From contig OX031059.1 of NCBI GenBank assembly GCA_943736015.1, positions 60,027,159-60,091,158 of the forward strand: DNA of 64,000 nt. The letters run 5' to 3'. The notes beneath the pieces were generated by a model. That model searched no databases. It was not told the origin of the DNA and saw nothing but the letters and a program-made list of their open reading frames with translations. Shown here piece by piece: positions 39,056 through 62,543 of the stretch (position 1 is its first letter; each line of letters opens with the position of its first letter). The stretch is from Tridacna crocea (taxonomy: Eukaryota; Mollusca; Bivalvia; Cardiida; Cardiidae). The position numbers were made by a program, and so were the translations under genes.

Positions 39056-39284
39056 TTAACCCTTTACTCCATAGATACTCATTTTAATGCATTGCTTGTA
39101 GGAGCCTTTGGAAAACATTGTGGCAAAAGGTGAAATTGCTCGTGACGAGCAATTTCACCTTTTGCCACAATGTTTTCTACACTTTCAAAAGGTGTCATAT
39201 ACACCTATGAAATGGCTTCATCCTTGCTGTTATTTAGGGTCAATTAGAGATACTGTAGAAATGCCTTATGGGGTAAAGGGTTAA
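39056..39284 (-). mobile_element. TTAA-hairpin MITE, subfamily B, full length
   Basis: TIRs TTAACCCTTTACTCCATA and TATGGGGTAAAGGGTTAA. Same size and plan as family A, but the arms differ and the stem reads GTGGCAAAAGGTGAAATTGC with a loop CTCGTGACGAG; every stem difference is matched on the opposite arm. Confidence 0.95.
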
Positions 39285-39455
39285 TTATCCTGTAATGAAT
39301 TACTTGATATAAAGCATCATGTCATGGTATGTCTTCAAAGACAAGGTATTTGATTGGCTATTATATTTTAGCTCTGCCAATCATTTTGCAAGTATCAGAG
39401 TTTACGTGCAGGCATCATCAATGATTGTAAGGTGTTGAATGCTGCTTCAACCATA

Positions 39456-39520
39456 TTTCAGTTAAATTGTGGCAGTGAGTTCACCTCTTTATGCTCTTCT
39501 GGATTTTCTTTTTACGAGTA
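39456..39520 (-). repeat. SINE S1 body fragment
   Basis: ATATTTCAGTTAAATTGTGG and the following 45 bp align with 28290-28345. No head. Confidence 0.4.
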
Positions 39521-40049
39521 AAAGGATGAACCTATCTCATACTTAAGTCTGTTACTAGAAAATATGAGTTTTATTGATCCATAATCATAATGATGACTTG
39601 CTAGGTACGACGCATCCTTGAATTAAACTCCCTTTTCACAAAGCAATATACATGTTGTTTACACAGAGGGTGCTTGAAGCAACTTTTTTTCAAAAGTCCT
39701 GTTTCAGAATGTCTATCTGACAGTTCATTAGTTTTCTTCCATAATTTTTTTTCAAGACTGACTGCAAACTTCAAAGTATCATAAAAGTCAATAACAATGG
39801 CAAATAAAAGTGTAATTCAGGTAAGATACACACCAACAATTATACTGTGGTAGAATTTTTGTTCTAAATTTGATGACTAAACATCTGATTGGCTGACAGA
39901 AAATAATACATCCAATCACATGGTTAGTATTGGAAATCAGAATAGGAATTGTGGCGGTTGGTCCTTGAGCCATTAATTCCATTTGTTGTCCAAAAACTGA
40001 CTCTCTGCCAAAAAGGCTTCGAGTCATCAATAAATGACTTCATTCTGCT

Positions 40050-40279
40050 TTAACCCTTTACTCCATAGACACTCATTTTGACGTATCAACAACAGACAGC
40101 TTCTGAAAACATGGTGGGAAAAGGAGAAATTGCTCGAAACGAGCAATTTCTCCTTTTCCCACAATGTTTTCCTCTCAATCGGATATTTGTATCCTCATTT
40201 GTCTATATTTTTGACATCATATCTTTATTTGCTGCTGAAATGGAAGAGCCTCAAATTGGCATATCAGGTAAAGGGTTAA
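40050..40279 (-). mobile_element. TTAA-hairpin MITE, subfamily C, full length
   Basis: Termini as in subfamily B (TTAACCCTTTACTCCATAG), stem half as in A (GTGGGAAAAGGAGAAA) and inner stem as in B (TTGCTCG/CGAGCAA). An intermediate between A and B with a fully paired stem. Confidence 0.95.
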
Positions 40280-40310
40280 ATACACTAGCTAACAACTGCA
40301 TTAGGGAGAA

Positions 40311-40450
40311 TTCTCTTTAGCTCAGTGGTAATAGTGTAAACCTTTTGTCTGGGCGTTCTAGGTTTGAATCCTGCCTGGTCCCTATATTTCTGCTATGCAT
40401 TTTGTTTCTTTATTACAAACTTTGTTCATAAGAGAATTGACTTCAAGACT
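40311..40450 (+). mobile_element. tRNA-derived SINE, family S2, copy 2
   Basis: Head TTTAGCTCAGTGGTAATAG and GTTCTAGGTTTGAATCC match copy 1 at 31395. It ends within about 30 bp of the NDUFAF2-like exon 4 donor. Confidence 0.65.
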
Positions 40451-40480
40451 TTTGGCAGACAAAGCTTCTGTATTACTTAC

Positions 40481-40561
40481 AAGTCTTTCTGCTTCTTTCA
40501 TTTCTAGCTTTCTTATTTTTTCTGCCATCTTCAATTTGTTGATTTCATTTCTTTCAATTTC
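40481..40561 (-). CDS. NDUFAF2-like gene, exon 4
   Basis: Acceptor TTTGACAG, 27 codons, donor CTT|GTAAGT, phase 0 at both ends. It encodes EIERNEINKLKMAEKIRKLE followed by MKEAERL, a charged helix. Joined to exon 3 it gives PPSPE-EIERNEI, matching NDUFAF2 PPTMEEILKNEKHRE and the Lys/Glu-rich helix that follows. Confidence 0.8.
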
Positions 40562-40678
40562 CTGTCAAAGAAAATTGGTTCTGGAAATTGTTATCCTCTA
40601 TCTATGATAAGACATTGTATGGGTACATTCTGTGCTTTTTATATCTTACAAACTGACTTAGAAAAAAAAATAAACTAT

Positions 40679-40907
40679 TTAACCCATTACAACTCAATCC
40701 CTACTTTTGACGCCCCTGAGAAAGAAGCCTTTTAAAAACACTGTGGGAAAAGGAGAAAATGCTGGTAACCAGCATTTTCTCCTTTTCCCACAGTGTTTTC
40801 TACCCTTTCCAGAACAAATTTCTATTTTTCAGTCACCTTTATTTTGTCGTCTGCAAATGCTTTCAATTTGGACCAGTCCAAAATTTTCTCGTGTGGTAAT
40901 GAGTTAA
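40679..40907 (-). mobile_element. TTAA-hairpin MITE, family A, full length
   Basis: Both TTAA intact; stem perfect, with CACTGTGGG on one side and CCCACAGTG on the other (a paired A-to-C / T-to-G difference from consensus ATTGTGGG). Confidence 0.95.
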
Positions 40908-40921
40908 AATAAAACAGGCTT

Positions 40922-41104
40922 TTAACTCTCTTCCACAGAGTCCAGACTTTTAATGACCCTGAGAGAGTATCCATTTGAAAAAATTGTGGGAAGAGGAGAA
41001 AGGAAATTTGGCTTTGAAAAGGTAGAAAACATTGTGAAAAAAGTCCTTGTAACAAGCATTTTCTCTTTTTCCAATATGTTTTCAAAAGCTCAATACTCAT
41101 GATC
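40922..41104 (-). mobile_element. TTAA-hairpin MITE, family A, rearranged
   Basis: The left arm and first half-stem are followed by a second GGTAGAAAACATTGTG start, as if two copies had recombined inside the palindrome. No right TTAA. Confidence 0.7.
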
Positions 41105-41148
41105 ATATACATAAAACATTACTTATCTTCAGACTTCTCAGTTATCAA

Positions 41149-41192
41149 TTCATTACCCAAGGACAAAAGTTTAGACTGATAATTTATCCATG
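41149..41192 (+). mobile_element. TTAA-hairpin MITE, end fragment
   Basis: ATTCATTACCCAAGGACAAA and AGTTTAGACTGAT are the first 40 bp of the + orientation. Confidence 0.5.
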
Positions 41193-41229
41193 ATTACACT
41201 GCTAACTAATGTCTACACACTGTAAAGTT

Positions 41230-41458
41230 TTAACCCTTTACCACATAATGCCGACTTTTGACGACTCTGAATAAGAAGCCTTTTAAAAACATTGTGGGAA
41301 AAGGAGAAAATCCTGATAACCAGCATTTTCTCCTTTTTCCACAATGTTTTCTACCCTATCAAAGAAAATTTGCACCATTTGAGCCACACTGAAATTGTTG
41401 TCTGTAACTGCTTTCAATTTGTACCAGTCTAAAATTTTGTCATTTGATAAAGAGTTAA
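41230..41458 (-). mobile_element. TTAA-hairpin MITE, family A, full length
   Basis: Both TTAA intact. Stem has unpaired changes (AATCCTGATAACC). Confidence 0.95.
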
Positions 41459-41493
41459 CAGTATTTGTTTACTCTCTGACTGTATGGATGTAG

Positions 41494-41710
41494 TTAACTC
41501 ATTACCAAACGACAAAATTTTAGGCTTGTCCAAATTGAAAGTATTTGCAGACGACAAAATAAAAGTGACTGAAGATTTGAAATTTGTTTTGTGAAGGGTG
41601 GGAAAAGAAGAAAATGTTGGTTACCAGCATTTTCTCCTTTTCCCACAATGTTCTCCAAAGGCTTCTTTCTCAGGGTCGTCAAAAGTAGGAACTGTGTAGT
41701 AATGGGTTAA
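41494..41710 (+). mobile_element. TTAA-hairpin MITE, family A, 12-bp deletion
   Basis: Missing the outer part of the left stem arm (GAAGGGTGGGAAAAGAAG), otherwise complete. Confidence 0.9.
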
Positions 41711-41765
41711 AGCCATGTATGTGGGTTGTGCTGATAACAAAACTTACTGCAGCTTTACGCTACTC

Positions 41766-41991
41766 TTAACCCATACTAAACAACAGTTTTCCATTTGTCC
41801 AAATCAAAAGCATTTGCAGACGACAAAAGGAAAGTGACTGAAAATTTGAAATTCATTTTGTGAAGGGTAGAAAACATTGTGGAAAAAGGAGAAAATGCTG
41901 GTTACCAGCATTTTCTCCTTTTCCCACAATGTTTTCTAATGGCTTCTTTCTCAGGGGTGTCAAAAGTAGGGATTGTGTGGTAATGGGTTAA
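41766..41991 (+). mobile_element. TTAA-hairpin MITE, family A, near full length
   Basis: Left end TTAACCCATACTAAACAAC lost three bases of the TIR. Stem nearly perfect. Confidence 0.95.
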
Positions 41992-42131
41992 CCTGCTAAA
42001 GGACAACATACTTTGTTGCAAGGAGTACTGTGAGTGTAGATTAAGATCAGACCATAAAGAAGGTGCAATCTGATCTCTGAATTCCTCCTTTATAGCATAT
42101 ACATGTACTATCTTTCAGGCTACTGTAGCCC

Positions 42132-42360
42132 TTAACCTATTACCACACAATCCCTACTTTTGACGCCCCTGAGAAAGAAGCCTTTAGAAAACATTGTGGG
42201 AAAAGGAGAAAATGCTGGTAACCAGCACTTTCTCCTTTTCCCAGAATGTTTTCTACCCTTCACAAAACAAATTTCAAATTTTCAGTCACTTTTATTTTGT
42301 TGTCTACAAATGCTTTCAATTTGGACCAGTCTAAAATTTTCTCATGTGGTAATGAGTTAA
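42132..42360 (-). mobile_element. TTAA-hairpin MITE, family A, full length
   Basis: Its right TTAA (42357-42360) is also the left TTAA of the next copy. Confidence 0.95.
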
Positions 42361-42562
42361 CCCTTTACTAGACAAAAAAATTTTAGTCTTGTCCAAACTG
42401 AAAATATAAGTGTAACTCAAATGATGCACATTTTCTTTGATAGGGTACAAAACATTGTGGGAAAAGGAGAAAGCGCTGGTTACCAGCATTTTCTCCTTTT
42501 CCCACGTTTTCAAAGCCTTCTTCCAGGGTTGTTAAAAGTCGGCTTTGTTTGGTAATGGAATA
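42357..42562 (+). mobile_element. TTAA-hairpin MITE, family A, abutting copy
   Basis: Joined directly to the previous copy through one shared TTAA. Internal deletions shorten the left arm and remove CAATG from the stem; the right TTAA has decayed to ATAG. Confidence 0.9.
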
Positions 42563-42695
42563 GATCAATACAGACTATCATATTTATCAAAGCCCATGTT
42601 TTTAAAATCTGACCTCAACTTCGAGGGGAGAGAAGAAGTTTTAAAAGCAACAAAATCTTCATTAATATATATATACACATAAAACTTTCACTTAC

Positions 42696-42736
42696 TTCCG
42701 GTGATGGGGGATTTTTTCTCATGCCTCGTAACCAAG
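42696..42736 (-). CDS. NDUFAF2-like gene, exon 3 (41 bp)
   Basis: Acceptor AATTTCAG, two bases completing a Ser codon, 13 codons (WLRGMRKNPPSPE) and donor GAA|GTAAGT. With exon 2 it reads PIEWNS-WLRGMRKNPP, against NDUFAF2 PTEWEAWIRRTRKTPP. The signature Trp, basic patch and PP are all present. TTAA-hairpin MITEs lie about 130 and 60 bp away on either side. Confidence 0.85.
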
Positions 42737-42798
42737 CTGAAATTAATGTGAAAAGTGTATGATAGAGAAAACAAATTATTCTCATAAGTGTGCTAAAC

Positions 42799-43040
42799 TA
42801 AACACATTACCAGACACTCTGCCGACAGAGTAAATCAAATTAACTGAGTTTTAACGACCTTGAGGAAATGACCTTTGAAAGACATTATGGGAAAAGGAGA
42901 AAATGCTGGTAACTAGCATTTTCTCCTTTTTTCGTGATGTTTTCTACCCTATCAAATACAAATTCCATCACTTGAGCAACATTTATATGGTATTCTGCAA
43001 GGGATTTCATTTTAATTAAGTCTATCTACTTTATTTAACC
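42799..43040 (-). mobile_element. TTAA-hairpin MITE, family A, diverged
   Basis: A 25-bp insertion lies after the left TIR (about 42817-42842) and the right arm is eroded. Stem core GGGAAAAGGAGAAAATGCTG is intact. Confidence 0.75.
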
Positions 43041-43370
43041 TTACCCAGGTCAAAATCATTTACATAAACTTATATTCTGATTTTTACCCTCAGCATATGT
43101 CCCGAATGATCTCTAAAATATTTCGTCCCATTTATGCTAATTCTTCACAAGATAAATTAAAACTTTCTGGTCTATCATCAAACACACAAATATTGCAATT
43201 TGTAAGTTTTTTTGTTTTTAGGAAAACACCTCCTCATTGTCTTGTGCAGTCTGATCTTGATCTACACGGACTGCATTTTTTTTTTAACTATGTTAAAAAT
43301 TACTGGATAGAAAATATGGACTACAGAAAGCACACAAGGTTATAGAGAGAACTGTCCCAGTAGCCTACTT

Positions 43371-43606
43371 TTTAGCTCTTTACCAAACGACAAAATTTTA
43401 CGCCGGTCCAACTTGAAGGCATTTGTAGATGACAAATTAAATGTTGTTAAAGTGGTGGTTTCTTTTTTTCGATGGGTACCGTAGAAAATGTTGTGGGAAA
43501 GGGAGAAAATGCTGCTTATCAGCATTTTCTCCTTTTTCACACAATGTTTTCAAAAGGCCTCTTCCTTAAGATCGTTAAAAGTCAGGACTGTGTGGAAAAG
43601 GGTTCA
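43371..43606 (+). mobile_element. TTAA-hairpin MITE, family A, near full length
   Basis: Left TTAA mutated to TTTAGC, right to GGTTCACC. Arms contain small insertions. Confidence 0.85.
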
Positions 43607-43719
43607 CCAACCCTAACCCATTTTCAAAGAGGGTTGAGATACCATCAAACAAGATATTCTGGCCAATTTTCATGTACATGTATGTCCGACCGAAAATGTG
43701 GTCTCTAGATAGTACAAAA

Positions 43720-44170
43720 CACGGCGGGGAATCACGTGACACAACAACAACAACAATGACCGTTATTTGAAAAAATTCCCCAACTTCAGGTAAGAAAATC
43801 TTCAATAATTCCGTTAATACGTGACCGATTGGAATTTGGTTTGAAGCAGAGAAGGCGGAAGGACTCTGGGGATTTGCTTGATGTGTTAGATTTTATAAAC
43901 AACACCAGATAAAAAAGTTATTGGCGAGCAAACAAATTATCCAGGGTAAAAAATTTGTTTGCTCGTCAATAACTTTTTTATCAGGTGTTGTTTAAAAAAT
44001 CTAACACATCAAGCAAATCCCTGGAGTCCTTCCGCCTTCTCTGCTTCAAACCAAATTCCAATCGGTCATGTATTAACGAATTTATTGAAGATTTTCTTAC
44101 CTGAAGTCGGGGAATTTTTTCAAATAACGGTCATTGTTGTTGTTGTTGTGTCACGTGATTCCCCGCCGTG
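43720..44170. mobile_element. 451-bp foldback element with target duplication
   Basis: Near-perfect inverted arms of about 215 bp, from CACGGCGGGGAATCACGTGA to its inverse TCACGTGATTCCCCGCCGTG, around a spacer of about 15 bp (43938-43952). A 5-bp duplication CAAAA flanks it (43715-43719 and 44171-44175). Arms include (CAA)n and no coding sequence. In intron 2 of the NDUFAF2-like gene. Confidence 0.95.
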
Positions 44171-44284
44171 CAAAAGGTTTTCCTGAATTTTTGTATCAGT
44201 GACATTCTTTTTGACAGCTATGATTCATTTTCAAACCTATTAAATACATGAAAACGATGAACACAAGTATTCTGACTAACTTCC

Positions 44285-44504
44285 TTAACCCTTTACCAAA
44301 CGACAAAATTTTAGACAGGTCCAAACTGAAAGCACTTACAGACCACAAAATAAATGTGACTCAAAAATTGAATTTTGTTTCCAGCAGGGAAGTAAACATT
44401 GTGGGTAAAGGAAAAAATGCTGGTTTCCCACCATGTTTTGGTTGTTTTCAAAAGGTATCTATCTCAGGGTCATAAAAACCACAGATTGTTTGTTAAAGGG
44501 TTAA
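44285..44504 (+). mobile_element. TTAA-hairpin MITE, family A, stem-deleted
   Basis: Both TTAA intact, but most of the right stem arm is gone (GCTGGTTTCCCACCATG). Confidence 0.9.
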
Positions 44505-44549
44505 GTACACAAAAGGAATTGGCACTCTAGAGAGCACAAAATGTAATCC

Positions 44550-44784
44550 TTAACCTATTGCCACAAAATCCCTACTTTTGACGACCCTGAGAAAGAAGCC
44601 TTTTTAAAACACTGTGGGAAAAGGAGAAAATGCTGGTAACCAGCATTTTCTCCTTTTCCCGCAATGTTTTCTACCCTTCCCATAGCAAATTTTAACTGTT
44701 CAGTCACATTTATTTTGTTGTTTGCAAATTCTCTCAATTTGGACCAGTGCAAAAATTTGCAAAAGTTGTCTGGTAAAGGGTTAA
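44550..44784 (-). mobile_element. TTAA-hairpin MITE, family A, full length
   Basis: Both TTAA intact; small duplication near the right end (GCAAAAATTTGCAAAAG). Confidence 0.95.
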
Positions 44785-44819
44785 AATTTTCAGGATGGAA
44801 ACAACACAACATAGACAGC

Positions 44820-44875
44820 AGAATCACAAAAGCTCAACTTGAGTATTGTGTGCACAGGTGAGCTAAACAAGTATT
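44820..44875 (+). mobile_element. Type 1 tandem-core element, 3' end only
   Basis: AAAGCTCAACTTGAGTATTG then TGTGCACAGGTGAGCTAAAC matches the type 1 terminal hairpin without any core. Confidence 0.55.
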
Positions 44876-45224
44876 AGCTTTTGTCAAGAACTACTCAAAC
44901 AAGAACAAGGCATGTGAGTGCCACAACTGCAGTAACTGTTGCCTTTTCAGGGTCTAAGCCAAAAAAAAGGACAAAACTGTGTCAAAATACCTCAAAGATT
45001 ATCTGGCCTTCTGATATGATACCTTTCTGCAAAAAAAAAAGCCCCAGTTCTTAAACTTTTTCACAGATGTCAAAAAGCACCAATCTTTTGGTACAACAAC
45101 AATGCATAACGTGGGGGCACTGACAAAGCCTTGATGCCTTCTTTGAAAAGATAATGCTTTGCTAAAAATGCTGGATTCATCAGATTTGCAGCTCAACAGG
45201 AAGGAAAAAACTTATATGCCTAGT

Positions 45225-47455
45225 AAAATGCAAAAAGGAGAATTCAGACATTTGTGTGAACTGTGAAGTGTTGCCTTGGATCATCAGCCTATGCAGTCTA
45301 ATCTAAAACAACTCTTTTCTGTTTTTATGTAGTGTTCTGTTTAGCAGAAGTCTACAAATTCTAATGTACCAGTAGTCCTAAAGTGCTGTCTCAGAGTAGC
45401 TTGCACAGACAGCACCAGGGATGTAAAAGTTTTTCTTTGTCTACTTGTCCTGTAGGATGAGTGGGTAGCAGAAGTTACTCGTCCTTATGACATTATCACT
45501 CATCCGAACTTGCGGACTTGAATGACCGTTTTTATTGCATATATGCCCTTTTCTCAAAGATTTGTGAACCTTACTGGTGTTTTCATTCTTTCAAAGAGAC
45601 AAACAAAGCAATGATTTAATTCCGGCACATTAATAGACAAAGAAAGTGTCAGAAATCATTTCTGGGCAAGGGAAAATAGACTTAATTCATTTTGTCATGG
45701 CAAAATCACCATAAAAATATATTACAATCAAAATGTTCTGCTTTATTCAATACCATCCATTTTTTTTTCATATATTTTAATTTCCAAACAAGTTAAAAAA
45801 GAATCAGACATATTTCAAGCATTTGCAGATGACACCATCTTCTCCCCCTACGCCCCCGCCCTCCGCTACAGATCTATATTTTCATAAAACAACATTCTTT
45901 TTCACTCCTGAATGAAAATTGAGCTTCTATTTATTGCTTAATTCAGAGATTTGTGTAAATTCACTGTTTACATTCATTATTAAAGATAATAAGACAATCT
46001 GAAGTCCCCCATTTGGTATACCTCGGGTGATGGGAGCCATCATATCCCTCGGCTGTAACTGGTGGAATGATATGCGTCAGATCGATGCATTCATCCCCGG
46101 AGATATGCCGCTTTACCGTTCTGAAAATTGTATGGCTCCTCTTACAAAAGAAAACTTGAGTTTCAATTTTCTATCAAAATCTTTGATATTGTTTACATAA
46201 TTTCCTCTGATTTAACAATGCAATTTTATCGAATTTGTTGATCACTCTTTTTGATCAGTCTTATTTTTTATTCAAAATCAACAAGGAATTTGTTCTGTCG
46301 CCACACCGCGCTTTCGCGGCATTTTCAATTTTCGCTTTTGATGACGTCACCATGGAAGTCCCCTGATCGGACGATGCCATGCTGCTCATTGTAGTGTCAT
46401 GGGTTTTCACGCTTTTTTGGCGATCTATTTTTTGTGACAATTAATTTATGGAGAAGTACTACTACACGATTTGACATCAATTAGTCAGTTTAAATAGCAT
46501 GTAACTTAAAAATCTGCTACTTTACTCTAGATAAGAGGAATAACACTTTTGCTACTCTGTCATGAATGACTCGCCAGCTTCACTATCATGCATGTGTCCT
46601 TCGCATTTCATACTTATCATGTTTAGCCCATATTTCTGCCGGATGCGCACAAGCTAGGTTATATGAAGCTTTAGATGATAATTTCATGTGTCATATTGAC
46701 ATTTAGGCAGATATTTTTCATTGTCAAAGACAGGTCATTTCAAATTTCCAATTGCCAAAACCAAGACTCGGGGATAAAATGAGAAGCAAGTTGAGTTGTC
46801 AATTTTTGTCAAGACATTGTTGGACAAAAATTTCTTTCTCATTTTTCCACCCAATTTTCATGTTTGTTATCCACTAATCTATGTTTAATCGAAGATTGTG
46901 ATTAATTATAGTCATGAAACCAAGAATTCAAGTTTAGGCACCAAGCGAGTTCAGGAATCGACTACAATCGATTCCGGGATTTCTCAATCATTCATATCAG
47001 AGTCGGAAGCCAAAACCAACTGACTTTCGACCATAGTCTGTCATCGGCCCACCAGTAAGGTATACTATTCTAACCGACACCGTGAACAGAAAACTAATCA
47101 AGCACTCGACAGATGTGCATGCGTAATAAACATAAACATCCTGTATTGTGATCGAAGAGGCGCTCTGAAATTTCAGTTTTACTTTCGTTTTGTGTTCGCT
47201 GTGAATTAACCTGCAATTTCAATTTTACGGGACAAATTTAAAATTTGATAGTTTTAAAAGTCCTCGTCCAACAGGACGAGCTTGGCATTTTTTCTACTCG
47301 CCCGAAGCCAAATGTTACTCGTCAATACGAGCGGACGAGTGGAATTTTACATCCCTGAGCACAGGTTAATTCCAGACAACACTTTACAATCAGGTCAATC
47401 CAAGACAACACTTTAAACAATTGGCTGAATCCCCCTTTTAGTGTATTGCAAGCCA
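45225..47455. mobile_element. Old MITE of the GACGACACTTT family, split by a hAT-like element
   Basis: Left half (ATTCAGACATTTGTGTGAAC ... GCACAGACAGCAC) and right half (GCACAGG ... GACAACACTTTA ... TTGCAAGCCAT) match the ends of 11156-11412. It ends about 37 bp from the exon 2 donor. Confidence 0.7.
45416..47357. mobile_element. Non-autonomous hAT-like element, 1942 bp
   Basis: Termini CAGGGATGTAAAA and its inverse TTTTACATCCCTG, flanked by the 5-bp repeat AGCAC (45411-45415 and 47358-47362). Sub-terminal blocks with CTCGTCC motifs occur at both ends. No ORF over 60 codons. CAGGG ends suggest hAT; the usual hAT duplication is 8 bp, with 5-bp lineages known, so the class is tentative. Confidence 0.75.
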
Positions 47456-47491
47456 TATACCTAACTCCGAATTAAAGAAAAATACTCATAC

Positions 47492-47608
47492 AATTCCATT
47501 CTATTGGTATTTCCATCTCCATTCCATAGTTTGTAATATCGTCATGTTTAACAAATGTCTCTTTCGGTGGTTCTATCATTCTGGACTCTTTGCCTGTCAT
47601 TGACTTGG
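47492..47608 (-). CDS. NDUFAF2-like gene, exon 2
   Basis: Acceptor AATTTCAG, two bases completing an Ala codon, 38 codons, one base, donor T|GTATGAGT. The peptide runs KSMTGKESRMIEPPKETFVK ... GMEMEIPIEWN. It aligns with NDUFAF2 after the YYxIP block, including the spacing to P-x-EW. Phase 1 at both ends fits exons 1 and 3. Confidence 0.85.
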
Positions 47609-47644
47609 CTGAAATTGTGAAATAAGAGATACTTGACAATCATT

Positions 47645-47820
47645 GGTTTTCATGATACTGAGAAAGACGCCTTCTGAAAACACTGTCGGATTAGGAAAAA
47701 ATACACAATGTTTTCTAACTTTCCCAACACAACTATCAGTTTTTGAGTCACGTTCATTTTGTCATCTGCAAATGTTTCCAATTTAGACTAGTCTAAAATA
47801 ATGTAGTATTAAAGAGTTAA
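47645..47820 (-). mobile_element. TTAA-hairpin MITE, 5' truncated
   Basis: Begins in the 50-bp arm (TACTGAGAAAGACGCCTTCT); a stem arm is largely deleted; ends in TTAA. Confidence 0.75.
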
Positions 47821-47835
47821 CAAACTATAATCCTG

Positions 47836-47981
47836 AAATCTTTTACCACATAAGCCAGACTTTTAACTACCCTAAAAGAGAGACTTTTGAAAACACTGTC
47901 AGAAAAGGAGCAAATGCTGGTAACTACCATATTCTCCTTTTCCAACAATGTTTTCTATCCAATAAAGGACAGGATATTCAA
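47836..47981 (-). mobile_element. TTAA-hairpin MITE, 3' truncated
   Basis: Arm and eroded stem present, lost after TATCCAATAAAGG. Confidence 0.7.
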
Positions 47982-47982
47982 T

Positions 47983-48485: not shown

Positions 48486-48538
48486 CTTGTTTGTTTTGCA
48501 GTTTTTCCAGCGTGACATAACACTGTTCTGAAAGTTGG

Positions 48539-53007: not shown

Positions 53008-53052
53008 AGGCCAAGGCCTTCTTCTACAAGGTTGTTTAAACTTGGTATAATT

Positions 53053-53480: not shown

Positions 53481-53888
53481 AATACATGGTGAAAGGTTGA
53501 GCCATGTATGTTACTAGTACTACAGGCCTTCGAAGCATTATTGGTCTATCATGGAACACTAAAATTGTCCTTGGTCGATCATCGGTCACTTATACCACAT
53601 TGGTGCATTGCCTGTATATCAAGGAATATCTATTCAAATTTTCTTTGATACTGTCTCTATAACTAGAGTTATAACTTAACATGATTATATCCCCCCCCCC
53701 CTCACACACACACCCAGCTCCTTGTCACAAAAACAGGTCTTTGTCACAGAATGGTGTAGTACAAAAGTAAGAGTTGAAAAAGTTTAAGGGGAGATAATTC
53801 CACAACAAATCACAGCAGGGTCATGAAAATTGCACATGTACAACTTCATATAAATAAAAACACAGAGTGAAAATTTGAGTTCAGTACC
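53481..53888. other. Non-coding stretch with poly-C/(CA)n
   Basis: C run and CACACACACACC at 53690-53715; nothing else recognised. Confidence 0.45.
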
Positions 53889-54106
53889 TTAACTCTTTCG
53901 CACACAAGAAAATTTTAGACTTTACCAAATTGAAAGCATCTGCAGACGACAAAATAAAGGCGACTAAAAAATATATAATTTGTTCTGGTAAGGGTAGAAA
54001 ACTCTGGGAAGAGGAGAAAATGCTGGTTACCAGCATTTTCTCCTTTTCCCACAGTGTTTTCAAAAGGCTTCTTTCTCATGGGCGTCAAAAGTAGGGATTG
54101 GGTTAA
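53889..54106 (+). mobile_element. TTAA-hairpin MITE, family A, near full length
   Basis: Lost about 10 bp near the right end (GGGATTGGGTTAA) and shares its right TTAA with the next copy. Confidence 0.95.
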
Positions 54107-54331
54107 CCCATTACCAAACGACAAAATTTTAGGTTTGTCAAAATTGGAAGGAATTGCAGACGACAAAATAGAAAGGACTGAAAATTTGCCATTTGTTTTG
54201 TGAAGGGTAGAAAACATTGTGGGAAAAGGAGAAAATGCTGGTAACCAGCATTTTCTCCTTTTCCCACAATATTTTCTAAAGGCTTCTTTCTCAGGGGCGT
54301 CAAAAGTAGGGATTGTGTGGTAATGGGTTAA
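54103..54331 (+). mobile_element. TTAA-hairpin MITE, family A, full length, abutting
   Basis: Same orientation as the copy before it, joined through a single TTAA at 54103-54106. Stem nearly perfect. Confidence 0.95.
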
Positions 54332-54339
54332 AAAGTCTT

Positions 54340-54450
54340 GGAGTATTGCGCCAGACAAATTTGTGTCTGTGGACAGATGGATCGACAGACAGACAGACAG
54401 ACATGGCAATTCCAGTATACCACCCTCCACTATGTTATGGGGGGTATCAA
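54340..54450 (+). mobile_element. Tandem-core element, type 4, 3' end only
   Basis: GACAGATGGATCGACAGACA microsatellite, then a terminal hairpin ATACCACCCTCC ... GGGGGGTAT. Same 3' plan as types 1-3 but a different sequence; no core present. Confidence 0.55.
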
Positions 54451-54847
54451 TAGCACATCAATAGCACATTGGTGACTCCCTGTTTATCATATATAGTAAC
54501 TATATACAATACAGATGGAATCTCCAATGTGCTATTTATAGTAACAGTGTCCGAAAATGAACATTTCATTACCCCTTTATAGACCAATGAAGTTTCAGAG
54601 GCCTATGATGTTACTTACTCAACACCCAGGCTCTGTCCTAGTTTACTAGCCTTGTACCTACCTGACTGGAAAAAAAAAGACTTTTTAAACAGATTCCTCT
54701 TCTGCAATAACAAACACGCAAACAAACAAGACTTCATAAAAATCTATTTTAATTTTTCTTCATAAAATATGCATTTACAATTAACATTTTCATTTCATGT
54801 TTTGAATGCACTAACAATCAAAAGAAATTGTGTTCAGAATTATCATT
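54451..54847. other. Spacer
   Basis: Nothing recognised apart from a short A run at 54669. Confidence 0.4.
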
Positions 54848-55075
54848 TTAACCCTTTACCAAACAATCCTGATTTTCAACGAACCTAACAAACAAGGGTT
54901 TTGAAAATGTTGTGGGAAAAGAAGAAAATGCTGGTAACAGCATTTTCTCCTTTTCCCACAACATTTTCTGCTGTTTCAAAGACGAATTCTATCTTTCGAA
55001 CACAGTTTTGCTTGTCATTTGTAACCACTTCCAATTTGGACATGTCTACAAGTTTGCTATCTGGTAAAGGGCTAA
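54848..55075 (-). mobile_element. TTAA-hairpin MITE, family A, near full length
   Basis: Outer stem reads GAAAATGTTGTGGGAAAA and its partner TTTTCCCACAACATTTTC, so the A-to-G change in one arm is matched in the other. One base lost at the tip. Confidence 0.95.
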
Positions 55076-55188
55076 TCATCAAGATATTTACAGTGTGGAC
55101 TAACTACACATATAAGCTTACATCAAGCTGGTCCCTGTTTCACAATCGATTTCTAAGAATAGCACAAAAATTTATTTGTATTTCAGTC

Positions 55189-55330
55189 ATGCTCCATGAA
55201 AAGGGGGGTTAAATGCAGCAGCAAAAAAAAAATTGACCAGCATCAGCAAGAGCAGTCCACACACAGACTGATATAGGTTGAAACTTTTCTGTGTTTATAA
55301 ATTTTCTACACTTTCAGGGACCATTTGACA
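55189..55330. repeat. Degraded MITE of the GACGACACTTT family
   Basis: CATGCTCCATGAAAAGGGGG, GCAGTCCACACACAGACTGA and GAAACTTTTCTGTGTTTATA recall family members at 11156 and 38855. Confidence 0.4.
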
Positions 55331-55367
55331 GTGTGATTTGGTCGGTCGTCAAGTTAACTCTTGAGTC

Positions 55368-55595
55368 TTGACCCATTACCACACAATCCCGAGTTTAACG
55401 ACTCTGTAAAAGAAGGCTTTTGATAACATTGTGGGAAAAGGAGAAAATGCTGGTAACCAACATTTTCTCCTTTTCGGACGATGTTTTCTACCCGATCCTA
55501 AACAAAAATCATCATTTAAGTTACATTTAATTTGTCATCTGCAAATCCTTTCATTTTGGACCTGTCTAAATTTTTGTTGTTTTGGAAAGATTTAA
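55368..55595 (-). mobile_element. TTAA-hairpin MITE, family A, near full length
   Basis: Left TTAA decayed to TTGA; right TTAA (55592-55595) shared with the next copy. Confidence 0.9.
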
Positions 55596-55813
55596 CCAAA
55601 CAACAAAATTTTAGACTTGTCCAAATTGAAAGCACTTGCAGGCGATAAATTAAACGTAACTCAAAAATTGAAATTTGTTTCCTGTAGGGTAGAAAACAGT
55701 GTAGGAAAAGGAGAAAATGCAAGTAACCAGCATTTTCTCCTTTTCCCACACTGTTTTCGAAAGCCTTCTACCTCAGGGTCGTAAAATCCAGGTACTGTTT
55801 GGTAAAGGGTTAA
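55592..55813 (+). mobile_element. TTAA-hairpin MITE, family A, abutting
   Basis: Joined through the shared TTAA; lacks CCCTTTA of the left TIR (TTAACCAAACAAC). Stem reads CAGTGTAGG against CCACACTG. Confidence 0.9.
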
Positions 55814-55888
55814 AAGGCTTCACTCTATCCTAATTATCTGAAGGTTTCCAGGATAAAATTTCCTGGATAAAAAGCATCATAGAGGTGT

Positions 55889-56117
55889 TGTATCCCATTA
55901 CCACACAATCCCAATTTTTAACAACCCAAAGAAAAGAAGCCTTTTGACAACACTGTGGGAAAAGAAGAAAATGCTGGTAACCAGCACTTTCTCCTTTTCC
56001 CATGTTTTCTACCCTTCCCCAATCAAATTTCATTTATTTGATTCACATTTATTTTGTCGTCTGCAAATGCTTTCAATTTGGACTAGTCCGAAATTTTGTC
56101 ATTTCGAAAGAAGTTAA
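55889..56117 (-). mobile_element. TTAA-hairpin MITE, family A, near full length
   Basis: Stem lacks ACA in the right arm (CCCATGTTTTC); left TTAA decayed. Confidence 0.9.
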
Positions 56118-56156
56118 ACTACCTTTTCCCAGAGTGTGGCTCTTTTGTTATCATCT

Positions 56157-56386
56157 TTAACTCTTTACCACACCAGAAAATTTTAGACTGGTCCAAATTG
56201 AAAGCATTTACAGACGACAACAAAAAATGTGAATCAAAAATTCAAATTTGATTTGGAAAGGGTAGAAAATATTGTGGGAAAAGGAGAAAATGCTGGTTAC
56301 CAGCATTTTCTCCTTTTCCCACAATGTTTTCTAAAAGCTTCTTTCTCAGGGGCGTCAAACATGGGGATTGTGTGATAATGGGTTAA
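56157..56386 (+). mobile_element. TTAA-hairpin MITE, family A, full length
   Basis: Both TTAA intact; stem perfect over the inner 50 bp. Confidence 0.95.
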
Positions 56387-56608
56387 AAAGTAAACCTCCT
56401 ATTCAGCTTCACTGATCATTTATTGCACAGAGTCCTAACCAAAGCTAGGAAAAGCTGTTTACTAGGAAAAAAAAAAGATTATTTTGTCTTGTGGCAGAAC
56501 ACTTAGAATACATTTTGACAAATAAAGAAACAGCTTGTGTCAAGCTACATCTATTACATAGACTGCAAATACTTTCAGTAACAAAAAGATTCAAATGTGG
56601 TCTGTGTA

Positions 56609-56825
56609 AGCCTTTGCCCAACAACAAAATTTCAGACTGATCCAAATTGAAAATATTTGCAGACGACATATAAAATATTAGTCAAAAATTGACTTTTTTA
56701 TTTTCAGCAGGGTTGAAAACATTGTGGAAAAAGGAGAAAATGCTGGTTACCAGCATTTTCTCCTTTTCCCACAATGTTTTCAAAAAGGTTTCTATCTCAG
56801 GGTCGTTAAAAGTCAGGATTGGGGT
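56609..56825 (+). mobile_element. TTAA-hairpin MITE, family A, 3' trimmed
   Basis: Stops at CAGGATTGGGG without a right TTAA; left end AAGCCTTTGCCC. Confidence 0.9.
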
Positions 56826-56826
56826 C

Positions 56827-57478
56827 ATATCACTGCCACAGCTCACATGTTAATGTATGTCCTTGCTTTCAATGGTACTCGGCTTGGGCACTTGCATATC
56901 TTGCCTAAGGTCACTCCAATCAAAAGAAACAGTGCTTCCAATGAAACTTTAACTCCAGACCTTCAGGTAACAAGTTCTAGACTTCATTACTAAGCTAAGC
57001 AAGGCCCATATTCACCAACCATTCTTGAGAATATTCTCAGTCTTATTCTCCAAGGTTTTCTACATCTGTACTCAGTCTTATTCTCCAAGGTTTTCTACAT
57101 TTGTAAGTAACACAACTTTTGATTGGCTTAAACAAATAGTCATGAAGAATAAGATAAAGAACGTTCTTAAAAATTGTTAGTGAATAAGAGCGCTGGCAGG
57201 ACCCAAAAGCAAAAATTAATCTTCGCTTATCACAAGCACTTTCTCGTTTTTTTTTTCAAAAGTGGCCCACAACAAGTCAAAATAGATTGTCTGCTACAGG
57301 TTGTGAGATCAGACACAAAATTTAGGACTTCTACTGGAGAAGAGGAAATTATCCCTGATATCTTTTCATAAAATTTTATATAAAAACAGATGTCTCTTCT
57401 CTGCTAAACATGCACCACAACAGTCTGCTTATTGTTAACAATTTCTTTCTTTTTTTAAGTTTTAACCTGCTAAATAAT
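56827..57478. other. Non-coding stretch
   Basis: Contains a tandem duplication CTCAGTCTTATTCTCCAAGG (57037-57098). A weak exon-like window at 57290-57369 (CTACAG then VRSDTKFRTSTGEEEIIPD, stop) is not supported further. Confidence 0.35.
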
Positions 57479-57664
57479 TTAACTCTTTAACAGAAGAAAT
57501 AATTTTAGACTTGTCAAAAATGAATGCTATTGCAGACGACAAATTAAATGTGACTCAAATGATGAAATTCGTTTGTGACAGGATTTGCCCCTTTTTCCAC
57601 AGTTTTTTCAGTAGCTTTCTGCTACAGGATCGTTGAAGGTCAGGATTGTGTGGTAAAGAGTTAA
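57479..57664 (+). mobile_element. TTAA-hairpin MITE, family A, left stem arm deleted
   Basis: Both TTAA intact but the left stem arm is missing (GACAGGATTTGCCCCTTTTT), giving 186 bp. Confidence 0.85.
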
Positions 57665-57714
57665 ATATAAAACTTTTTATAATATAAGCCCACATGTTGA
57701 TATTAGAAAGTTAT

Positions 57715-57943
57715 TTAAACCTTTACCACACAATCCCTACTTTTGATGCCCCTGAGAAGGAAGCCTTTTGAAAACACTGTGAGAAAAGGAGAAAATGCTG
57801 GTTACCAGCATTTTTTCCTTTTCCCACAGTGTTTTCTACCCTTCCCAGAACAACATTCAATTTTTCAGTCACCTTTAATTTGTCACCTGCAAATGCTTTC
57901 AATTTGAACCAGTCTAAAATTTTGTTGTGTGGTAAAGAGTTAA
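57715..57943 (-). mobile_element. TTAA-hairpin MITE, family A, full length
   Basis: Left end TTTAAACC; right TTAA shared with the next fragment. Stem CACTGTGAG against CCCACAGTG. Confidence 0.95.
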
Positions 57944-57993
57944 ACCTTTACCACACAATGCAGATTTTTGACGATCCTTGAAAAGAAGCCATC
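57940..57993 (-). mobile_element. TTAA-hairpin MITE, abutting fragment
   Basis: TTAAACCTTTACCACACAAT and 35 more bases only, joined through TTAA 57940-57943. Confidence 0.8.
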
Positions 57994-58058
57994 TTACAGA
58001 GTAGTCTGATCCTTATCTTCATTGTCTGCAAAAGGTCCTTGAGTTTTGCTTAGCAACC

Positions 58059-58286
58059 TTAACCCTTTCCCAAACAGCAAATTTTGGACTAGACCAAATT
58101 GAAAGCATTTTGCAGGTGAAAATAAACAGTTGCTAAAAAGATGATTTTTCTATATGATGGGGTAGAAAACATTGTGGGAAAAGGAGAAAATGCTGGTTAC
58201 CAGCATTTTCTCCTTTTCCCACAATGTTTTCAAAAGGCTTCTATTCCTGACCCATAAAAACCAGGCATTGTTTGGGAAAGGGTTAA
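58059..58286 (+). mobile_element. TTAA-hairpin MITE, full length, CCCTTTCCCAAA variant
   Basis: Same termini variant as 14588-14816 (TTAACCCTTTCCCAAAC / TTTGGGAAAGGGTTAA). Stem perfect. Confidence 0.95.
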
Positions 58287-58698
58287 CAATAGATGAAAAC
58301 ATAATTATATTGTTTACTTCAATATCTACAAATGATTCATTTGTGACATAGTAAAATAAAACATAACTAGCATGCCTAATGTTGTAAAAGCTTCTATATG
58401 CAGAGAAATCAGAAGTGCACTGGACAATTTTTACTTTACCCTTTGTAAGTTACCTATTTGTTTATATTATATTACATGTGTCTATTTTTGGAAATGTTAT
58501 GGGTAAAGAAATGTCGTAATTTAAGCTAGGGGGAATTATTTCCCCATCACAGTGAATATTTTCCTCCTGCCGAAAATCTGGAACTACTTTTTTTGAAAAT
58601 ATCGGTTATCCGATTAATTGACTTGAGATCACTAGTTTTAAAAGTGGCATTCATTGACAAAATAATCAGAGGAAATATATAATTCATTTCATCCGATT

Positions 58699-58824
58699 GT
58701 GGTTAATATGGGGAAATATTTGCCTCAAAAGGGAAAGGTCTGCGAAAATAACTTGTGCCTTACAGTACTCGTTATTTTCGCATACCTTTTCCTTTCTCTG
58801 CAAATATTTCCCCATATTAACCAC
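58699..58824. mobile_element. 126-bp hairpin MITE
   Basis: GTGGTTAATATGGGGAAATA and its inverse TATTTCCCCATATTAACCAC form arms of about 57 bp. One arm recurs at 19811-19880. Confidence 0.85.
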
Positions 58825-58825
58825 A

Positions 58826-58972
58826 CTTACAATCCTGAGGAAAAGAAGAGGACTTCTGAAAACTTCAGAAAGGGACAAAATACTGGTAACCACCATTTTC
58901 TCTTTTTCCTACAATATTTTTCAAAGCTGTTTTTCTAGTAATCATTATAACTGGGGATTGAGAAAGGCTTAA
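58826..58972 (-). mobile_element. TTAA-hairpin MITE, degraded
   Basis: ACAATCCTGAGGAAAAGAAG and GGGACAAAATACTGGTAACC keep the order; right arm short. Confidence 0.55.
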
Positions 58973-58979
58973 ATTTGAT

Positions 58980-59211
58980 TTAACCCATTACCAAACAATC
59001 CCTGATTTATACAACTCTAAGACAGAAGCCTCTAAAAAAATATCATGGGAAAAGGAGAAAATGCTGGTAACCACCATTTTCTCCTTTTCCCACAAATGTC
59101 TTTTACCATGTTGGAAACAAATTTCAATCTTTGAGTTGCATTTACTTTGTCGCCTGCAAGTGCTTTCAATTTGAACCAGTCTAAAATCATAGCACTTGGT
59201 CATGGGATTAA
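58980..59211 (-). mobile_element. TTAA-hairpin MITE, family A, full length
   Basis: Both TTAA present; outer stem eroded, inner stem good. Confidence 0.9.
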
Positions 59212-59326
59212 CACCTTTCCTCTCACAGATACCTTCCATCACAGAAAATTGAATATCTATCCAATACATATGAGAAACATTATCATTGCACATTTTTCAC
59301 CATATCTTATGGTTCACCAGTAAATG

Positions 59327-59532
59327 AATAACCCATAACCAAAACATTTGGTGTCATAATGCCATTAAGGAAGAAGGTGTATGAAAACATTGTGGGAAAA
59401 GGAGAAAATGGTGGTAATCAGCATTTTCTCTGTTTTCCATTATGTTTTCTACCATTTAAAAGACACGGTCAACTTTTGAGCTACATTTGATTTGTCCACT
59501 GACTATGCTTTCAATCTGATCACATGTAAAAT
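59327..59532 (-). mobile_element. TTAA-hairpin MITE, diverged, truncated
   Basis: AACCCATAACCAAAACATTT, stem GGGAAAAGGAGAAAATGGTG; right end replaced by the next copy. Confidence 0.75.
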
Positions 59533-59741
59533 TAAATTTTACACTGCTTCAAATTGAAAGTACTTGCAGACAACGAATTAAACATAACTCTAAAATTGAA
59601 ATTTGTATCGAGCAGGGTAGAAAACATTGAGGGAAAAGGAGAAAATGCTGGTGACCAGCATTTTCTCCTTTTTCCAAAATGTTTTCAAAAGACTTCTATC
59701 TCAGGGTTGTAAAAACTAAGGATTGTTTGGTAAAGGGTTAA
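59533..59741 (+). mobile_element. TTAA-hairpin MITE, 5' truncated
   Basis: Begins inside the long arm (CACTGCTTCAAATTGAAAG); right TTAA shared with the next copy. Confidence 0.9.
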
Positions 59742-59953
59742 CCCATTACCACACGATCCATACTTTTGACACCCCTGAGAAAGAAGCCTTAGAAAATATT
59801 GTGGGAAAAGGAGAAAATGCTGGTAACCTTTTCCCACAATAGTTTCTACCCTTCACAAAACAAATTTCAAATTTTCAGTCACTTTTACTTTGTCGTCTGC
59901 AAATGCTTTCGAGTTGGACAAACCTAAAATTTTGTTGTTTGGTAATGAGTTAA
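59738..59953 (-). mobile_element. TTAA-hairpin MITE, family A, stem-deleted, abutting
   Basis: Joined through TTAA 59738-59741. The second stem arm has lost its inner part (GGTAACCTTTTCCC). Confidence 0.95.
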
Positions 59954-60359
59954 CTTCGAGACCATTAAGGAAGATTTGTAAGATCAAAGCATGGGAGAAA
60001 TGGTGTTATCAGAGTACACACACTGCAACAAACAACTTTAAACACAAGTATATCATCGTTAAACATGGATAATAAACATCAGTCATAGTCCCATGTACAA
60101 ATATCTATGAAATAGCGGCACCAGAATGAGATGTTTCAAGAAAGTTTTCCCCTTGCCACAATATTTTCAAAAGTGAGAAAAAGCTGCAAGACAAGAAAAG
60201 CCAAATGCAAATAGGACTGTTTCAGAGAATGGCAAATAGGACTGTTTCAAAGAAAAGAAGCATTAGCAATTGAATAGTATTACAATAACGCTAGTAATTT
60301 GTAAGTATCATACAGAAAAACAAAATTATTTTGAAAAAAATTATCGTCTAAACATTCAA
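59954..60359. other. Spacer
   Basis: Short tandem duplication of AATAGGACTGTTTCA (about 60209-60254). Nothing else recognised. Confidence 0.4.
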
Positions 60360-60615
60360 CATATTTCAGTTTATTTGTATTGAAATTTATCGCCATTTTA
60401 ACAGCTAAATTTATATTATGGTAGCCAAATGCACCTACACGTCTTTCTCACACCTGGACTGACACAATTTTCTTTCTAAGCCACTGACTATTGTATTTCA
60501 TGCATTAGAGGTGAGAGGCAGAAAATTGCCTGAAAGAAGGTTTGCTGTAACCAGGTATCAAACCTGCAACCAACAGTCAGATACAGTAACCAATGGGCTA
60601 CCTGGCCAGGCAAAC
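60360..60615 (-). mobile_element. tRNA-derived SINE, family S1, copy 2
   Basis: Minus-strand head with TAGCCCATTGGTTACTG and TTGCAGGTTTGATACC; body aligned with 26818-27097 (CACAATTTTCTTTCTAAGCC). More diverged than copy 1. Confidence 0.6.
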
Positions 60616-60803
60616 ATATTTCAGACATTACATTGACTACTTCAAGTGACAGAAACGAGAAGAAAAATTTAAGGGAAAGGAAATGGGCAAATTTCTCTGA
60701 AAAGTTTTCAAAGGCTGTTTTCAACAGGGGCTGAAGATCATATTTGCATGATAACTGCAACATAATTTCTTTGGTTTAGTTTCGGTTGGTATGTGTACAA
60801 ATG

Positions 60804-61045
60804 TTAACCCTTTACCACACAATACAGAATTTTAACAATCCTGATGACAAAGTCTTAAAAACTTAGCGGGAAAAGCAAAAAATTTTGGCAATTAGTATTT
60901 TCTCCTTTCCCTACAATATTTTCTACCTTATAAAAGATTGTCATTACACTGATAGCACTTCCAACTTTATCACCTTTGGTTTCTTCTATTCCTAGTTGGC
61001 TTAAATTTTTTGTTGGCTTAAATTTTTTGCTTGGTAAAGACTTAA
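60804..61045 (-). mobile_element. TTAA-hairpin MITE, family A, diverged
   Basis: Both TTAA present; stem badly mismatched; a tandem TTGGCTTAAATTTTTTG near the right end adds length. Confidence 0.8.
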
Positions 61046-61422
61046 ACATATTCTTTTTGTTCTAGTAAAAATGTAGACATAGATTAATTTCTTAAATTTT
61101 AATAAATAAATGAGTATTTTGCCTGACAAGATGTGCCTTAAAAACTTTTCTGATTATATATTGTATAAGTTATATTCCATGAAGTAGAAGATAATGTTCT
61201 TAATAAAAAATGGTCTTTTTCAAGGAACAAAAGCAAAGCTGAGCAAGCACTGAACAATATTCAAACATCAGTTTCAATTCTATAATAAAAAGCAGCCACC
61301 TTTTTAGCTGAGACATGAGATATAAGCCAATCCAGTAACTGCCATAAAATTAAAATGACCTTTTGAACTGTTGGTCAATACAACATCTGTTTTTATGAAC
61401 TGTGATAAATTCAATAAATGAT
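61046..61422. other. Spacer
   Basis: AT-rich, nothing recognised. Confidence 0.4.
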
Positions 61423-61651
61423 TTAATTCATTAGCAAACAACAAAAGTTTAGCTTTGTCCAAATCGAAAGCATTTGCAGACGACTAAATAAGAGCGACTG
61501 AAAATTTGAAATTTCTTTTGTGAAGGGAAGAAAACATTGTGGGAAAAGGAGAAAATGCTGGTTACCAGCATTTTCTCCTTTTCACACAGTGTTTTCCATA
61601 GGCTTCTCTCTCAAGGTCGTCAAAAGTAGGGATTGTGTGGTAATGGGTTAA
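61423..61651 (+). mobile_element. TTAA-hairpin MITE, family A, full length
   Basis: Both TTAA intact; stem with two mismatches. Confidence 0.95.
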
Positions 61652-61857
61652 CATGAAGTATTTGCTTGTTTTGGACTTTTACTACTGGCTCAATATACAA
61701 TTGAAATGTTCGGCAGATTTGTTGTAGTCTGAATCTTTTTTTCTGACAAAATATCAAGCAGTTTAGAACCAAAATGAGACTACACTTACTATGCATGCTG
61801 ATTCTGACCTAGATACAGTGATTCTGATCTTGAATTAACTTTACCAGACCACAAAAT

Positions 61858-62059
61858 TTAACCCATTACCAAACGACAATATTTTAGACTGGTCCAAACT
61901 GAAAGCATTTGCAGAAGACATAATAAAGGTGACTGAAAATTTGAAATTTGTTTTGTGAAGGATAGAAAACATTGTGGGAAAAGGAGAAAATGCTGGTTAC
62001 CAAACACTTTCAATTTCGACAATGGTTAAATCTGTTAAAAGTTATAAAAGGATGTTTAA
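61858..62059 (+). mobile_element. TTAA-hairpin MITE, family A, right half replaced
   Basis: Long arm and left stem arm intact to GCTGGTTACC, then unrelated sequence to the TTAA shared with the next copy. Confidence 0.85.
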
Positions 62060-62266
62060 CCCTTTACCACACAATGACGCCTTTTAACACCCCTAAGAAA
62101 GAAGCCTTTAGAAAACATTGTGGTAACCAGCATTTTCTCCTTTTCCCACATGTGTTTCTACCCTATCAAAGCCAAAGTGCATGATTTCAGCCACTTTGAA
62201 ATTGTCATCTGCAAAATGCTTTCAATTTGGATAGGTCTAAAATTATGCTGTGTGGTAATAGGTTAA
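62056..62266 (-). mobile_element. TTAA-hairpin MITE, family A, stem-deleted, abutting
   Basis: One stem arm lost (ACATTGTGGTAACCAGC), both TTAA present, joined to the previous copy. Confidence 0.9.
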
Positions 62267-62309
62267 ACAGTAAATACAACAGTAACTTTGTGTCAGGAGG
62301 TACCGGGTC

Positions 62310-62543
62310 TTAACCTTTTACCCCATAAGGTATTTATTTCTATGGTATCTCTAATTGACCCTAAAATAACAGCAAAGATGAAACTGTTTCTTATGTGTAT
62401 ATGAAACCTCTTGATATTATAGAAAACATTGTTGCAAAAGGTAAAATTGCTCGTCACGAGCAATTTCACCTTTTGCCACCATGTTTTCCAAAGGCTCCCA
62501 CATGCAATGCGTAGAAATGAGTATCTATGGAGTAAAGGCTTAA
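62310..62543 (+). mobile_element. TTAA-hairpin MITE, subfamily B, full length
   Basis: Opposite orientation to 39056. Stem TTGCAAAAGGTAAAATTGCT against AGCAATTTCACCTTTTGCCA, tip CGTCACG. Confidence 0.95.

Follow-up and report, generated by a model that had tools for sequence, protein, structure and literature searches.

Matched stem changes between subfamilies and one-arm decay of resident copies in the palindromic core of an abundant piggyBac-like MITE of Tridacna crocea

Why do the two arms of a palindrome change together between subfamilies of a transposable element? This question is raised by a stretch of 64,000 nucleotides from the bivalve Tridacna crocea (assembly GCA_943736015.1, contig OX031059.1, positions 60,027,159 to 60,091,158; in the following, the window). 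It contains many copies of a 229-bp, TTAA-flanked, piggyBac-like miniature inverted-repeat transposable element (MITE) with a 67-bp palindromic core, which occurs as the subfamilies A, B, and C. The element consists of TTAA, 51 bp, the core (two 33-bp arms and a 1-bp centre), 103 bp, and TTAA; its ends are CCCTTTACC...GGTAAAGGG. The register is nearly constant among A, B, and C, with about 55 bp to the left of the core, 107-108 bp to its right, and TTAA on both sides. Once inserted, copies decay for the most part in one arm at a time, whereas the stem differences between subfamilies are matched; along the source lineages, drift affects the flanking arms and leaves the core almost unchanged. 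The matching seems to be inherited from the amplifying sources, such that symmetry matters for spreading and not for residing in the genome. We consider it probable that this abundant non-autonomous element requires an intact symmetric core in cis to amplify.

The stem of A reads GTGGGAAAAGGAGAAAATGC with the tip CTGGT/ACCAG, and that of B reads GTGGCAAAAGGTGAAATTGC with the tip CTCGT/ACGAG. The two differ at the four pairs 14 (G→C), 21 (A→T), 26 (A→T), and 31 (G→C), and in each case the opposite arm carries the complement; the centre base differs as well. An earlier interpretation made from the letters of the window (the sequence-only reading) had reported these stems, tips, and co-varying positions, and the recount confirmed them. 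The same holds for its statement that subfamily C is a mixture: the copy at 40050 carries only two of the A-B changes, those at pairs 26 and 31, and agrees with A at pairs 14 and 21. Private paired changes had been proposed for two further copies. The one at 54848 has matched changes at the adjacent pairs 6 and 7, which occur jointly in no other of 118 A copies. The change at 40679, from T-A to C-G at pair 8, is not private but shared by 19,435 copies in the genome. This C-G state is found with C-type as well as A-type tips (locus L002 near 403, locus L012 near 129), and it is thus ancestral, recurrent, or exchanged.

The genome comprises 1.05 Gb in 31 contigs. Within about 359 kb, namely the window, 20 ten-kb stretches placed at fixed rather than random positions on C1-C5, 30 search loci, and locus L051, we found 246 copies of the core, of which the window accounts for 54, the 20 stretches for 100, and the remaining sequence for 92. 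If the 100 copies per 200 kb are representative, the genome contains about 520,000 copies; this figure is rough, as the counts per stretch vary from 0 to 17. An exact 35-mer of the A core gave 115,836 genome matches. Chance is ruled out as the origin of the palindromes, because the window contains 82 stem matches with at most 3 mismatches, compared to a mean of 0.05 over 100 shuffles. For five cores, a single-strand DNA fold of -31 to -38 kcal/mol was predicted, and in each case none of 200 shuffles was as stable.

A first count of arm changes in resident copies was filtered for good palindromes (160 of the 246 copies). Its 113 A copies that were not seeded by the exact-core search gave 428 one-arm changes, 39 that were matched, 13 of them at pair 8, and 22 double-unmatched ones; the corresponding expectation of 13.4 matched changes derives from column frequencies and disregards copy age. 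Note that a diagnostic column was one position off in this set, which affects the tally of B letters and, at the margin, the A/B split. In a recount, 191 copies were found by their flanking arms alone and 135 were aligned (not seeded, core length 60-75, full arms). The arm seeds were taken from copies with recognisable cores, and some bias to kept cores persists. Unmatched changes, omitted by the sequence-only reading, are abundant: the 118 arm-defined A copies contain 465 one-arm changes versus 49 matched (15 at pair 8) and 28 double-unmatched ones. Nine of the 34 matched changes outside pair 8 sit in four copies of other subfamilies. Excluding pair 8 and these four copies leaves 114 A copies, in which 423 changes are one-arm; matched changes number 25 (null 18.9 ± 3.7) and double-unmatched ones 22 (null 22.4 ± 3.9), and 136 of 2000 shuffles reach 25 matched changes. 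This exclusion was made post hoc, after the first shuffle result had been seen. The 42 younger A copies (arm distance <0.2) show, pair 8 again set aside, 96 one-arm, 3 matched, and 0 double-unmatched changes. Counted from the listing, the 12 true B copies have 20 one-arm changes and not a single matched one relative to the B core. The 5 matched changes that had been tallied for B all stem from L040_8627, an A copy which was misassigned to B, owing to a motif in another part of it, and is missing from the A counts; conversely, one B copy (62421) fell into the C-like group in the 118-copy count.

As a genome-wide control we used pair 11 (T→C), for which 3,484 one-arm, 67 matched, and 67,218 unchanged copies were counted. 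Independence predicts about 45 matched copies, and the spread of copy ages would raise this expectation. All genome counts refer to exact stem patterns, such that decayed copies are excluded. Pair 11 and the trimmed shuffle test indicate that the arms of resident copies decay largely independently. They do not support in-place hairpin repair as the main cause of the matching.

The situation is different in the source lineages. At pair 8, 67,218 unchanged copies are accompanied by the 19,435 matched C-G copies and 7,379 one-arm copies, whereas mutation alone would give about 200 matched ones. A rough estimate, obtained without a fit by scaling from the decay at pair 11 and the faster decay of G to A and of C to T, attributes about 6,400 of the one-arm copies to mutation after insertion. 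On this estimate, roughly 1% of the copies descend from sources that were mismatched at pair 8. The consensus sequences of young and old A copies differ at 0 of 67 core positions and at 21 of 154 positions in the flanking arms (Fisher p 0.0007). For the arms outside the palindrome, which the sequence-only reading had described as diverging freely, A and B are 57% identical on the left and 46% on the right (shuffles 45%; 15 of 500 shuffles reach the right-arm score). Although these arms are thus nearly without homology, the stems retain 29 of 33 pairs, the four exceptions being matched. The left arms of B and C are 73% identical. Among 111 non-seeded elements, the mean pairwise core distance climbs from 0.05 to 0.22 as the arm distance goes from 0.08 to 0.47. 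A conserved core between drifting arms indicates that the core is constrained, or exchanged, at the level of the sources, and symmetry is among the features kept. The covariation test that had been suggested earlier, performed here on the sample and on a few pairs genome-wide, has therefore a divided outcome: within subfamilies, matched changes are at or slightly above chance, whereas between source lineages matched change dominates.

How might amplification favour symmetry? Only copies with an intact symmetric core would amplify well, and mismatched copies would seldom become sources. A new core would found a subfamily only after both of its arms agree, and such a matched variant could arise via a second mutation or via rare arm-to-arm template switching. 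Less surely, the need in cis might be met by a hairpin or cruciform, or by a palindromic site for a dimeric factor, acting in transposition or replication. One possible form, which we put forward tentatively, is that the core must fold into a DNA hairpin or cruciform in cis for the MITE to multiply, and that selection acts on the pairing of the stem bases and their weak/strong pattern. It is suggested by the four A-B changes, two of which are also A-C changes: all are mirror-image swaps (A-T to T-A, G-C to C-G) that keep the weak/strong class. The spectrum of 231 one-arm changes consists of 139 transitions, 42 mirror swaps, and 50 others; given this spectrum, four swaps out of four would occur with a probability of about 0.001 where a mutation of one arm is copied to the other, and of about 2e-5 where the arms mutate independently. 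This comparison was framed after the pattern had been seen and rests on four pairs; the change at pair 8 is an ordinary transition and lies outside the pattern.

The other form is a site of two-fold symmetry at which a dimeric or paired factor, be it a transposase or a host protein, binds the double-stranded core without any hairpin, the two halves changing together with its specificity. We regard this as an equally tentative proposal; being one form of the favoured reading, its odds overlap with those of the latter. That letters and not just pairing are conserved (29 of 33 A-B pairs next to near-random arms) is in agreement with such a site, and so is the fact that symmetry is kept at the source level and not in resident copies. 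However, 67 bp of perfect symmetry is long for a dimer site, and the preserved weak/strong class fits structure as well as sequence. The present data do not separate the hairpin from the protein site. With regard to the mechanisms offered by the sequence-only reading, a requirement of the core for mobility is favoured for the sources, whereas the templating of one arm from the other is disfavoured as a wholesale repair of resident copies.

Several observations weigh against a need for the symmetric core in amplification. With pair 8 excluded but all 118 A copies kept, the 34 matched changes exceed a null of 20.9 ± 3.9, and the largest of 2000 shuffles gave 35. Cells in which both sides have changed number 77 in register, versus 31-38 when the partner is slid by 1-3 columns; this gap is partly due to pair 8 and the other subfamilies, and partly, we think, to in-register partners sharing the base type and hence the mutation rate. 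Moreover, pair 21 (A>T) is matched in 36 copies, where about 3 are expected from 1,130 one-arm copies; the number of unchanged copies at this pair is approximate, as the subtracted B hits include elements found on both strands. The matched excess per copy thus depends on the test: it is near chance for pair 11 and the trimmed sample, above chance for the untrimmed sample, and clear at pair 21. Independent decay does not yield the excess at pair 21, and the surplus of about 33 copies may consist of relics of an intermediate subfamily or of products of arm copying.

Arm-to-arm copying could even be the whole explanation, if template switching during replication (quasipalindrome correction) rewrites one arm and the palindrome is unneeded for mobility. 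This is a known mechanism for creating and keeping perfect stems, as described in passages of PMC8794818, and it would account for the excess at pair 21, for the two adjacent matched changes of the copy at 54848, and for the rare matched copies with just one of the two changes, at pairs 14 and 21, by which B differs from C (36 at pair 21 only and 36 at pair 14 only among 121,361 stem matches). The yield is small, however. Pair 11 shows only about 22 matched copies beyond chance versus its 3,484 one-arm copies, where the yield of pair 21 per one-arm change predicts a surplus of about 100. By our reckoning, copying at the rate of pair 11 is too slow to preserve stems while the flanking arms drift to near-random identity, and it leaves unexplained why the letters themselves persist at 29 of 33 pairs. 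We therefore judge copying alone to be unlikely. In a lesser role, template switching between the arms may occasionally give rise to a new matched version, and so have started some subfamilies, in line with the excess at pair 21.

Further points against the favoured reading concern the divergence of individual copies. In young A copies it is lower in the core (106/2,729, 0.039) than in the flanking arms (416/5,737, 0.073), and the same is true for a B group of 15 copies, defined by a looser rule and including L040_8627 (core 33/930, 0.036; arms 135/1,831, 0.074). The values for old A are 440/3,915 and 1,499/6,420, respectively. In a tight pair-8 subfamily, core (10/455) and arms (24/980) have diverged alike, and we read the lower core divergence in the broader groups as hidden subfamily drift of the arms. 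Lower mutability as the full explanation is not supported by this subfamily, which is a small control of only 7 copies; still, a core that mutates less or is repaired to some extent would produce a similar picture.

Exchange of cores between families could likewise keep them alike. Here, the palindrome would be a module swapped among MITE families by recombination or gene conversion, with cores younger than the arms around them. The same core does occur with three sets of arms (A, B, and C), and the C-G state of pair 8 is combined with both A-type and C-type tips. On the other hand, the near-constant register and the 73% identity of the left arms of B and C fit common descent, and larger arm distances go along with a slow, steady increase in core distance; we regard exchange as improbable. 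A founder effect, in which a few young masters happened to have perfect palindromes without any constraint, is disfavoured and very improbable: the huge copy number and the few subfamilies seen would suit it, but the core is identical in the old and young sources of A despite 21 arm differences, and B and C have retained the core after near-complete divergence of their arms.

The last point against the favoured reading is the failure to find a transposase with the ends of the MITE in one locus and six upstream slices, all inspected by eye. The family PF13843 (piggyBac transposase) has at least 118 matches in the genome, many with open frames. In the locus and the six 751-base slices, no autonomous partner with matching ends was recognised: two transposon ends (TTAACCCTTTATATAC and TTAACCCTAGTCATGC) differ from those of the MITE, and in the other five slices no end was recognised. 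An intact-looking piggyBac element with a 624-aa open frame and ends TTAACCCTTTATATAC lies at 576-3340 of L051 and adjoins copies of the MITE.

The classification of the element as a piggyBac-type MITE is based on its TTAA target site duplication, its terminal repeats, and its length of 229 bp, which rules out an encoded transposase and makes it a short non-coding element. A TTAAYY motif was found 55-75 bp to the left of the core in 88 of 142 copies, and RRTTAA 85-130 bp to the right in 100 of 142; the commonest distances are 55 and 107. These are raw counts, without shuffle control or empty-site comparison. B, C, and old A begin with CCCTTTAC, which is of the piggyBac-type terminal form CC[C/T]T given in the parts of PMC2872659 consulted; the young A consensus begins with CCCATTAC, departing at the fourth base. 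With piggyBac MITEs in general, the element shares the TTAA target and CCC(T/A) ends, the symmetric internal core being an addition.

The nearest precedent is the CMITE group of corals. According to the passages seen of PMC2872659, the Acropora CMITEs are TTAA-flanked, linked to piggyBac, about 100 bp long, and estimated at about 1,600 copies in A. millepora; the families differ less in their interior than in their terminal repeats, and the authors suspected a role of the interior in transposition. The present element resembles them in its TTAA, its link to piggyBac, and an interior conserved more than the ends. Its core sequence is unlike theirs, however: the printed 60-bp CMITE consensus is, by eye, neither similar nor palindromic, and covariation is not reported for CMITEs in those passages. 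Template-switch hairpins (PMC8794818, in part) likewise show matched changes in perfect stems, often several together, but there the correction acts on the gene itself, whereas the resident copies studied here show little of it at pair 11. The conserved central domains of short interspersed elements (SINEs), such as the V domain (PMC6887750), are likewise preserved amid changes elsewhere in a non-autonomous element. SINEs are retrotransposons, unlike a MITE. We know of no palindrome in the V domain. Four core pieces of 18-21 letters did not occur in the literature text searched, and nothing that we recognised as the present element came up in a literature search on piggyBac MITEs of bivalves or molluscs and on MITE cores that are palindromic or compensatory.

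The copies referred to above are compiled in Table 1. In addition, copies lacking part of the palindrome were seen at 52167-52211, 59801-59840, and 61974-62149, as if the core were deletion-prone.

Table 1. Selected MITE copies and cores in the window (window coordinates).
Feature	Position	Strand	Basis or remark
Family A MITE with perfect core (core 14643-14709)	14588..14816	+	Pairing, fold
Subfamily B MITE, 229 bp, TTAA to TTAA	39056..39284	+	Sequence; B arm cluster
B-type core, 33/33 pairs	39111..39177		Predicted single-strand fold -38.3 kcal/mol, 0/200 shuffles as stable
Subfamily C MITE	40050..40279	+	Sequence; arm cluster
C core: pairs 14, 21 as in A; pairs 26, 31 as in B; mismatches at pairs 9, 33	40105..40171		Pairing
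Family A MITE, pair-8 C-G subfamily	40679..40907	+	Sequence
Core of the 40679 copy: pair 8 C-G, pair 1 mismatched	40734..40800		Pairing, fold
Stretch with most A-type palindromes listed, both orientations	40679..61650		Palindrome and stem searches
Older A-type copy (core 54903-54968) with matched changes at the neighbouring pairs 6 and 7	54848..55077	+	Right TTAA decayed, end approximate
Subfamily B MITE	62310..62543	-	Sequence; arm cluster
B core with three one-arm changes (30/33 pairs)	62422..62488		Pairing

The window contains further repeats. A large duplicated and inverted unit, rich in CGTA/TCCGTA and with hairpin centres near 15535 and 17363, occupies 13600-19000 and carries three related MITE remnants (14050, 16739, 18564). 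Their unusual cores were rejected as independent evidence, since by eye all three lie within this one larger unit. Several tandem arrays with periods of 141-170 bp extend over 21600-38000, and a long inverted repeat outside the MITE family is located at 43700-44180 (centre near 43944). Other inverted-repeat elements were seen at 11225, 31736, 38553, and 53110-53440, including a family with ends resembling ACCCTATGTTGTGGGTACTCATT. The stretch 40307-40386 is tRNA-like, with A-box- and B-box-like motifs recognised by eye, and is possibly a tRNA-derived SINE; ARAGORN called no tRNA in the window, this stretch included.

The rise of MITEs to hundreds of thousands of copies has long called for an explanation, and few of their internal sequences are known to influence mobility. 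A family of about half a million copies constitutes a natural experiment, in which the decay of resident copies gauges mutation and the rare changes tolerated in sources show the demands of amplification. If the symmetric core is indeed a cis signal, this would assign a function to MITE interiors, one that could be assayed with standard piggyBac reporters.

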